Program-made: the position numbers and the translations under genes
Assembly (NCBI RefSeq): GCF_023115465.1
Contig: NZ_CP096034.1
Span: 124,001 to 188,000 of the forward strand
Origin: Gottfriedia acidiceleris
Lineage (GTDB): Bacteria > Bacillota > Bacilli > Bacillales > Bacillaceae_G
Reading direction: 5' to 3'
DNA length: 64,000 nucleotides
The notes under the pieces: model-generated
Told to the model about the DNA's origin: nothing
Databases searched by the model: none
Seen by the model: only the letters and a program-made list of their open reading frames with translations
In this document: positions 61,744 through 63,978 of the stretch, piece by piece
Layout of the letters: every line of letters begins with the position of its first letter
Numbering within the stretch: position 1 is the first letter of the stretch

Positions 61744-61773
61744 TTGACCAGTTTAAATACAGTATAGTATAGT
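61744..61773 (+). promoter_or_regulatory. glmS promoter
   Basis: TTGACC (61744-61749), 18 nt, TATAGT (61768-61773), about 55 nt before the ribozyme cleavage site. Confidence 0.75.
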
Positions 61774-61828
61774 TGTTTTATTGTTTTCCTAACAAGGAAG
61801 GAGTATAGAAATAATAAAATATTACAAA

Positions 61829-61985
61829 AGCGCCAGAACTACACTAGACGTGAATGTGTAGTTGACGAGGTGGAGTTTTATCGAAGTTTCGGCGGATGAC
61901 TCCCGGTTGCTGTATCACAACCGAAATTATTTATGAAAAACACATGGGTGACTGTGTGCACAAACGTAAATAATCTGATACACCG
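61829..61985 (+). ncRNA. glmS ribozyme/riboswitch
   Basis: The self-cleaving RNA is activated by glucosamine-6-phosphate and lowers glmS expression. Expected cleavage is between A61829 and G61830 in AAAGCGCCAGAACT. The core motifs GTTGACGAGG, TATCGAAGTTTCGGCGG and GGGTGACTGTGTG are present, with paired arms ACTACAC / GTGTAGT, CGGTTG / CAACCG and ATTATTT / AAATAAT. The match to the family is strong by eye. Confidence 0.95.
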
Positions 61986-62024
61986 TTTAAAACAAAAAAT
62001 GAACTCGCTAATGAGCGGAATATG

Positions 62025-62175
62025 AAAGGTAGGTGGATATTGCTTGTAAGTCCTCTACCATTATTAAACATGACGAGGGAATAGAAAAATAAATAGTTAA
62101 ACGGTTAGGAAAACAGCATTCCATTCCTATACATTTTGTATGTCTTGTTTTTGGACTTACTAAGCAATAGTAATT
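62025..62175 (+). promoter_or_regulatory. Long-range hairpin between a distant Shine-Dalgarno and the glmS start
   Basis: AAAGGTAGGTGG (62025-62036) is the only good SD-like sequence after the ribozyme, 140 nt from the ATG. ATTGCTTGTAAGTCC (62039-62053) and GGACTTACTAAGCAAT (62153-62168) are complementary over 15 bp with one bulged base. Folding would leave two bases plus seven bases, nine in all, between the SD and ATG 62176. The sequence next to the ATG (CAATAGTAATT) is not SD-like. The function is inferred. The TTG at 62040 opens a 14-codon frame ending 62084, an alternative explanation for the SD. Confidence 0.55.
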
Positions 62176-63978
62176 ATGTGTGGAATCGTTGGATATATTG
62201 GAAATGATAATGCGAAAGAAATTTTATTAAAAGGTTTAGAGAAATTAGAGTATCGTGGTTACGATTCTGCTGGGATTTCTCTTTTAACTGACAAAGGTGT
62301 AGAAGTTTACAAAGAAAAAGGTAGAATTGCAGTATTACGTAAATCAATCCCTACAAAAGCGGACGGACACGTTGGAATTGGTCATACAAGATGGGCAACA
62401 CATGGTGCTCCAAGTAAACGTAATGCGCATCCTCACCAAAGCTCTACTGAACGTTTTACACTTGTTCATAATGGCGTTATCGAGAACGATGTACAATTAA
62501 AAAACGATTATTTAAATGATATTGAATTTACAAGTGATACAGATACTGAAGTAATTGTTCAGTTAGTTGAATTGCATATTAAAAAAGGTTTATCTGTGCT
62601 AGATGCTTTTAGAGAAACACTTAAGCTTCTTAAAGGATCATATGCAATTGCATTATTAGATAAACAAAACGATGATGTAATTTATGTAGCAAAAAACAAA
62701 AGTCCATTACTAGTTGGTGTTGGTGAAGAGTTTAATGTTATTGCATCTGATGCGATGGCAATGTTACAAATTACTGATCAATTTATTGAATTAATGGATA
62801 AAGAGGTTATTTTAGTTACTAAAGATCGAGTTCAATTAATGGACCTTAACGGAAATATAAAAGAACGTTCTCCATATACAGCAGAAATTGATGCTAGCGA
62901 TATCGAAAAAGGAACTTATCCTCATTTCATGTTAAAAGAAACAGATGAGCAACCTCTAGTAATCCGTAATATTATCCAAAAGTACCAAGATGAAAATGGC
63001 GAGCTTGTAATCGATTCAAAAATTAAAGCGGCTTTAGCAGAAGCTGACAGATTATATATTGTTGCTTGTGGAACTAGTTATCATGCTGGTCTTGTTGGTA
63101 AACAGTTTATTGAAAAAATGGCGGGATTACCTGTAGAAGTACATGTTGCAAGTGAATTTTCTTACAATATGCCACTGCTTTCAGAAAAACCATTATTCAT
63201 TTATATTTCACAAAGCGGTGAAACTGCTGATAGTAGAGCATGTTTAGTACAAACAAATAAATTAGGTCATAAAGCAATTACACTGACAAACGTTCCAGGA
63301 TCAACATTATCACGTGAGGCTGATTTCACTCTTCCTTTACATGCAGGTCCTGAAATCGCTGTTGCATCAACGAAAGCATACACTGCACAATTAGCAGTAC
63401 TTGCAATTGTTGCAAATGCTCTTGCAAAAGAAAAAGGAAAAACAGTTAACTTTAACCTAGTTAAAGAACTTGGAATTGTAGCAAATGCAATGGAATCAAT
63501 TACAAACCAAAAAGAAGAGTTTGAAAAAATTGCTACAGAATATTTAGCTACAACTCGTAATGCTTTCTTCATCGGTCGTAACGTAGATTACTTCGTTTGC
63601 CTAGAAGGCGCATTAAAACTAAAAGAAATTTCTTACATCCAAGCAGAAGGATTTGCTGGTGGAGAGTTAAAACACGGTACAATTGCTCTAATCGAAGAAG
63701 GGACTCCAATCTTCGCATTAGCAACACAAGAATCAGTAAACTTAAACATTCGTGGAAATGTAAAAGAGGTTGTTGCACGTGGTGCTAATCCTTGTATCAT
63801 TTCTATGGAAGGATTAAATATGGAAGGCGATCGCTTCATTTTACCAAGAGTACAAGAAGAATTATCTCCAATCCTTTCAGTCGTACCATTACAATTAATT
63901 TCTTACTATGCTGCTTTACATCGTGGTTGTGATGTTGATAAACCACGTAATCTTGCAAAATCAGTTACTGTTGAATAA
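62176..63978 (+). CDS. glmS: Glutamine--fructose-6-phosphate aminotransferase (isomerizing) GlmS
   Basis: Makes glucosamine-6-phosphate from fructose-6-phosphate and glutamine, the entry step of UDP-GlcNAc synthesis. 600 aa. MCGIVGYIG gives the N-terminal nucleophile Cys after Met removal; the class II glutaminase domain (about 1-220) has GHTRWATHG and NGVIEN; two SIS domains follow (about 285-425 with SQSGETADS, and 455-595), ending in the invariant KSVTVE. No canonical SD is adjacent to the ATG. Product feedback operates through the ribozyme upstream. Confidence 0.97.

Follow-up and report, generated by a model that had tools for sequence, protein, structure and literature searches.

Translation of glmS in Gottfriedia acidiceleris probably starts from a structure-bridged, or split, ribosome binding site. 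A strong Shine-Dalgarno (SD) sequence lies ~140 nt 5' of the glmS ATG, and a long-range helix, termed P1 here, would bring the two together; the same SD-helix-ATG layout was found in 19/19 genomes examined from the Gottfriedia family as defined by GTDB (4 genera). In the window, that is, the whole 64,000-nt stretch of DNA that was analysed, the glmS ribozyme ends at 61983, and the bridging device thus sits 3' of the ribozyme. The features of the region are as follows.

61744-61773, plus strand: promoter-like TTGACC-18-TATAGT 5' of the glmS leader, from a consensus scan
61818-61983, plus strand: glmS ribozyme (RF00234), cmscan 130.5 bits against a gathering score of 37, E 1.6e-31
62024-62036, plus strand: distal SD GAAAGGTAGGTGG with the core AGGTGG at 62031-62036, anti-SD duplex -16.8 kcal/mol
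62038-62053, plus strand: P1 5' arm (UAUUGCUU-GUAAGUCC), from pairing, folds and cross-lineage comparison
62050-62059, plus strand: candidate SD-pairing strand GUCCUCUACC, predicted to form a local hairpin (62028-62038 with 62050-62059) that is exclusive with P1
62054-62152, plus strand: loop domain within P1, 99 nt, conserved in the genus and of other length and sequence in other genera
62153-62169, plus strand: P1 3' arm (GGACUUAC, bulged U at 62161, AAGCAAUA), from pairing, folds and cross-lineage comparison
62176-63978, plus strand: glmS coding sequence

The glmS start is fixed at ATG 62176 by two arguments. The sequence reads an in-frame TAA at 62161-62163, five codons 5' of this ATG, which excludes a longer GlmS N-terminus, and enzymes of the GlmS class require a Cys after the initiator Met as the N-terminal nucleophile; ATG 62176 opens a full-length GlmS of 600 aa that begins M-C-G-I-V-G. 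The preliminary description had remarked that the bases before this ATG, unlike those before nearly every other gene, are not SD-like. Indeed, the adjacent anti-SD duplex was +0.4 kcal/mol, whereas 50 other ORFs of the window had a median of -12.9 and none was weaker than -5.5. This control leans towards SDs, because strong SDs were favoured when its starts were chosen and 15 of the 65 listed ORFs were left out (ORFs in 47-54 kb, minus-strand ORFs, several with starts other than ATG, one at the edge of the window and a mis-started glmS). The mis-start is instructive, in that a simple SD-leaning start caller put the glmS start at 62596 instead of ATG 62176; start callers that rely on an adjacent SD can miss genes of this type. 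Further upstream, the promoter-like match is weak evidence by itself, as the consensus occurred at 2 sites in comparison with 4.1 expected in shuffles. A small hairpin, TCGCT-AATG-AGCGG at 62005-62018, was also seen between the ribozyme and the distal SD, and its version in locus L115 has changed bases with the TCGC/GCGA pairing retained.

The AGGTGG at 62031-62036 and the complementary arms at 62039-62053 and 62153-62168, on which the preliminary description had built its proposal, were all found in place, and one further pair, 62038-62169, extends the helix to 16 bp (8 bp, a 1-nt bulge at T 62161, and 8 bp). P1 starts 2 nt after AGGTG, and its 3' end stops 6 nt short of ATG 62176. The duplex formed by the two arms has an energy of -21.9 kcal/mol, which was equalled by none of 2000 dinucleotide shuffles (Euler-path), and P1 is present in the minimum free energy (MFE) fold of the window's glmS leader. 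Among the 50 other ORFs of the window, no upstream SD-like site was accompanied by a duplex of -16 kcal/mol or lower, the best being -14.0. The fold energy of the whole leader was unremarkable (z of -0.34 for 61984-62200, -1.72 for 62020-62180 and -1.47 for 61801-62230); the signal resides in the pairing arms and in how they co-vary. Within the looped-out domain, a motif ACGGTTAGG(A/G)AAACA...TTCCTA at 62101-62130 was strongly conserved in the genus, and inspection by eye showed no counterpart outside it in the family.

The arrangement extends across the family as sampled. The block was present in 13/13 Gottfriedia genomes examined, all with an invariant distal SD; among named relatives, a near-identical glmS is found in Gottfriedia species or strains, some of which are still filed as Bacillus sp. 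In the six genomes from the other three genera, the leader 3' of the ribozyme differs in sequence and keeps the same layout, with a GAGAGGAAGGTG-like SD followed by an arm, a stretch of variable length and a partner arm 7-9 nt 5' of the ATG. An adjacent SD was missing in 19/19 family genomes, where the best duplex ranged from +0.4 to -4.9 kcal/mol. In 18/19, a distal SD of -15.6 kcal/mol or better was detected within -180 to -30, and in the single exception, L122, the SD (-18.2) was cut by the edge of this search interval; the distal SD is thus kept in every lineage, with strengths of -15.6 to -18.2 kcal/mol at the eight loci scored. The glmS ribozyme was identified in 6/6 further family loci scanned, one of them Gottfriedia (118-134 bits), and no Rfam match to the bridging element was obtained in the window or in these six loci. 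As a separate observation, the 36 nt from the SD through the SD-pairing strand (62024-62059) were invariant in 13/13 genomes of the genus, including one with 77 percent regional identity.

Because the arms are near-invariant in Gottfriedia, with changes confined to the bulge and the outermost pair, that genus alone supplies no covariation, and the arms were compared between lineages. When the 3' arms were permuted among six lineages, the true assignment gave the lowest summed duplex energy of all 720, and it was again the lowest of 120 when Gottfriedia was omitted. The true pairing was not the best in every row and column, in that another lineage's arm pairs better in L121. This permutation is independent of a second comparison, a table of 16 pair columns in seven sequences with looped and bulged bases omitted, which was made by hand because automated alignment misplaced the arms of different genera. 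In the table, 101 of the 103 filled cells were standard pairs, G-U counted, with both misses in L121. Two-sided changes were seen in 16/16 columns, in 14/16 without L122, the inner half of which is loosely aligned, and in 13/16 without Gottfriedia. As the table was aligned by eye for pairing, it is more open to bias than the permutation.

The exact form of the helix varies among lineages. The arrangement of 8 bp, bulge and 8 bp recurs in L118 and L123; L119 and L120 have 8 bp, a 2-nt bulge and 5 bp, plus one more bulge on the 5' side, L121 has 6 bp, mismatches and 8 bp with a bulge inside and two mismatched outer positions, and L122 retains the outer half-helix and only part of the inner half. 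The strength of the arms relative to shuffles varied as well. Of 2000 shuffles per locus, none reached the observed arm energy in L105, L115, L116 and L117, 2 did so in L123, 4 in L118, 11 in L120, 12 in L122, 96 in L121 and 466 in L119, showing that P1 is not significant by this measure in L119 and marginal in L121. Single lineages can thus be weak, and it is the between-lineage comparison that carries the case. Across 12 loci, the arms covary and the loop varies, from 79 to 144 nt within the outer half-helix, which is the outcome that the preliminary description had named as favouring a helix. Judging from this comparative pattern, P1 is almost certainly a conserved RNA helix, and the natural compensatory changes stand in for the usual helix proof.

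P1 (6 or more pairs) was recovered in the MFE fold of the SD-to-ATG leader at 19/19 family loci, with only 9 P1 pairs in L122. With the context from -40 to +15, it was present in 17/19 MFEs (lost in L122 and L123), and with 60-nt flanks on each side in 14/19 (lost in L113, L117, L121, L122 and L123); it was also absent when L024 was folded in a wider context. In the leader alone, the SD was unpaired with probabilities of only 0.20-0.90 and the AUG with 0.34-0.96. At 12 loci measured, the distance from AGG to the helix was 4-5 nt and that from the helix to the AUG 6-9 nt, so that bridging gives an SD-AUG spacing of 10-13 nt, as opposed to 109-172 nt unbridged. For T4 gene 25, the bridged distance is given as 11 nt (PMC3014915), which may be counted otherwise than here. 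The family leaders thus combine a remote SD, a structure that would restore the spacing, both predicted and backed by covariation, and phylogenetic conservation, as a split ribosome binding site should.

These findings speak for the bypass hairpin that the preliminary description had proposed for the glmS start, since the arms change and yet pair, and the bridged spacing is 10-13 nt. The anatomy, the conservation and the co-variation of the arms can be read from the aligned leaders themselves, and we infer from them that ribosomes use the bridge. The 30S subunit would bind the strong distal SD, P1 would take up both arms and loop out the 99-nt domain, and the start codon, with 10-13 nt then between it and the SD's AGG, would come within reach of the P site. 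Placed 3' of the ribozyme, the bridge would act at translation, and it would replace the adjacent SD that other Bacillales keep 3' of a leader hairpin.

Outside the family, glmS leaders were sampled from 66 other families, and the SD was adjacent in 80/80. Sixty of these leaders came from the same order, drawn from 144 matching genomes with at least one from each of 46 other families, and 20 of 73 came from other orders of the class (20 families); in both sets every leader had an adjacent SD of -9.3 kcal/mol or better (60/60 and 20/20). A distal SD of -15.6 kcal/mol or better within -180 to -30 was found in 0/60 of the order outgroups. Likewise, when 78 named loci were scored, 11 of them Gottfriedia, an SD-like word of at least 5 bases lay within 22 nt of the ATG in 66 of the 67 others. 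The exception, L095 (Lacticigenium), has GAGGG near the ATG, and the AGCGCC ribozyme motif was absent from the sequence examined.

The order outgroups (L124-L183) carry a long hairpin right 5' of the adjacent SD, at about -70 to -15. In 60/60, a hairpin with 8 bp or more closed no further than 20 nt (median 5) 5' of the adjacent SD, with a median of 17 bp, small bulges allowed, and a span of 45 nt. The 8-bp threshold is lenient by itself, as 616/1200 shuffles passed it; at 12 bp or more the counts were 55/60 and 282/1200, and only 14/1200 dinucleotide shuffles folded as stably as the real outgroup stretch. The outgroup hairpin thus exceeds what composition would give. The E. coli thrS mRNA, in which the SD is reportedly still adjacent to the start, with a single-stranded region beyond the hairpin, resembles these outgroup leaders more than it does the family bridge. 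As to the direction of evolutionary change, we infer that the simplest origin is an ancestor with the order ribozyme, hairpin, SD and AUG that gained an SD 5' of the hairpin and lost the 3' SD, and that the family hairpin would be homologous to the outgroup hairpin. In 26/60 outgroups, a simple pattern search also found a set of three strands complementary to one another, GGGGCAAG ... GCCCC ... CTTGCCCC, and the SD GGGAGG is a further potential partner of the third. Such a pattern might represent an unrecognised translational switch 3' of the glmS ribozyme.

Beyond bridging as such, the split site may also be regulated, which would be the second layer of control suggested in the preliminary description. 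We consider only tentatively that a local hairpin pairing with the SD (OFF) competes with P1 (ON), and with the same reserve that the balance is set, through the loop domain or the bulge, by temperature or by a ligand, protein, sRNA or polyamine. Several features are consistent with such competition. The 36-nt stretch that runs from GAAAGG to CTACC and includes the SD-pairing strand is invariant in 13/13 genomes of the genus, even where L117 diverges directly after it; the probability that the window SD is unpaired was 0.22 with a transcript ending before the 3' arm and 0.59 with the complete one; P1 was missing from 5/19 MFEs in the wider context; and, by eye, the 3' strand was seen to bulge by 1-2 bases between the half-helices or inside one of them in the window, L118, L119, L120, L121 and L123. 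Other features are not. Completing the transcript did not free the SD in L118, L119, L120 and L122 and hardly did so in L114, by eye no loop motif common to the genera was noticed, and no ligand is suggested.

The local SD-sequestering hairpin was also considered as a proof of switching and was rejected, as it fails against shuffles except in L123. There it is strong (15/1000 shuffles), whereas in 9/10 loci tested it was no better than shuffles (58-110/1000 in the four Gottfriedia loci and 151-615/1000 in the other five); in the window, the value of 71/1000 was not significant. Regulation through the recurring bulge and the competing hairpin is plausible, and it is somewhat doubtful that the element is a family-wide cis-regulatory RNA in which formation of P1 frees the SD and also moves it across more than 100 nt to meet the start codon. 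If it were, a signal read by the looped-out domain, for which a metabolite, a protein, a polyamine or temperature are candidates, would then gate an essential enzyme separately from the ribozyme.

A different reading keeps the structure and dispenses with the bridge. The helix would close the domain of a second structured regulator, initiation would be independent of an SD, and the distal SD would be incidental. The loop domain is indeed conserved in the genus, and the closing helix of any structured RNA would covary too. This reading is nevertheless unlikely, because a strong distal SD (-15.6 to -18.2 kcal/mol at the eight loci scored) occurs in every lineage and is missing in 60/60 outgroups, and the distances from SD to helix and from helix to AUG are constrained. 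Far less probable still is a leader peptide, in which the GTG inside AGGTG would open a short ORF that controls glmS. G-rich, SD-like bases lie just 5' of this GTG, at only ~3 nt, a spacing that counts against the case, and the peptide VDIACKSST common to the four Gottfriedia loci translated is encoded by the stretch that forms the invariant arm. The frame itself is not conserved, ranging from 1 to 58 codons at the 10 family loci translated: a stop follows directly after GTG in L118, L119 and L120, and the frame has 7 codons in L122, 9 in L121 and L123, 10 in L117, 19 in the window and L116, and 58 in L115. In the Gottfriedia leader L115, which shares its genome with L020 (G. solisilvae type), the 58-codon GTG frame was observed to overrun the glmS ATG out of frame, unlike the frames of 1-19 codons at the other nine loci. 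Finally, the inserted mobile element with inverted ends that the preliminary description had offered as its alternative, by which SD and start codon were parted, would fit the inverted arms that border the block and the adjacent SD of glmS elsewhere, but is scarcely credible, as the block is single-copy in its own genome (next match E 0.1, 20 bp) and hence belongs to no mobile repeat family, 13/13 genomes of the genus are filled, 0/19 family leaders have an SD directly before the ATG, unrelated sequence takes the same layout in other genera, and outgroups already bear a hairpin at about the same place.

We thus return to the split ribosome binding site and its known relatives. To our knowledge, most reported cases of structure-bridged initiation come from a small number of phage and E. 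coli mRNAs. For genes 25 and 38 of T4, RNA structure is described to cut the SD-AUG distance from 27 to 11 nt and from 22 to 5 nt, respectively (PMC3014915). The likeness is that an SD too distant to function is brought to a working distance by the intervening RNA structure. The difference is that the T4 genes are phage genes with a stretch of 22-27 nt, whereas glmS is a chromosomal housekeeping gene with 109-172 nt and a sizeable inner domain, and, unlike the T4 cases as there described, its bridge occurs in all 19 family genomes examined, has compensatorily turned-over arms and stands behind a ribozyme. In the E. coli mRNAs of the polyamine modulon, oppA, rmf, rpoE and cpxR, the SD is said to be obscure or distant and the initiation region to contain bulged stems, and in cpxR a bulged stem is described that has the SD at one end and the AUG at the other (PMC4191411). 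Members of that modulon are defined by their response to spermidine, whereas the glmS bridge is likened to them by sequence and structure, and it probably spans a much larger distance than their stems. For the split ribosome binding site of E. coli thrS, the ribosome is described as making room for a long hairpin that stays folded (PMC3936740). The glmS ribozyme/riboswitch RF00234 has its own mechanism, outlined in PMC3997798, and the bridge is an element separate from, and 3' of, this ribozyme.

In the open-licence literature, judged from titles and abstract openings apart from the papers cited here, nothing on split, distal or looped-out SDs, or on glmS with an SD or a leader hairpin, was recognised as this arrangement, and no paper combined Gottfriedia and ribozyme. 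The principle of bridging is known; what seems new within that literature is its family-wide occurrence at a housekeeping gene, its size, the compensatory turnover of its arms and its place behind a ribozyme. The family leaders form a natural series that bears on the size of the structure that a 30S subunit can accept between an SD and its AUG, and also on how an SD can change sides of a hairpin in evolution. For the family itself, bridged initiation looks like a standing arrangement for an essential cell-wall gene.
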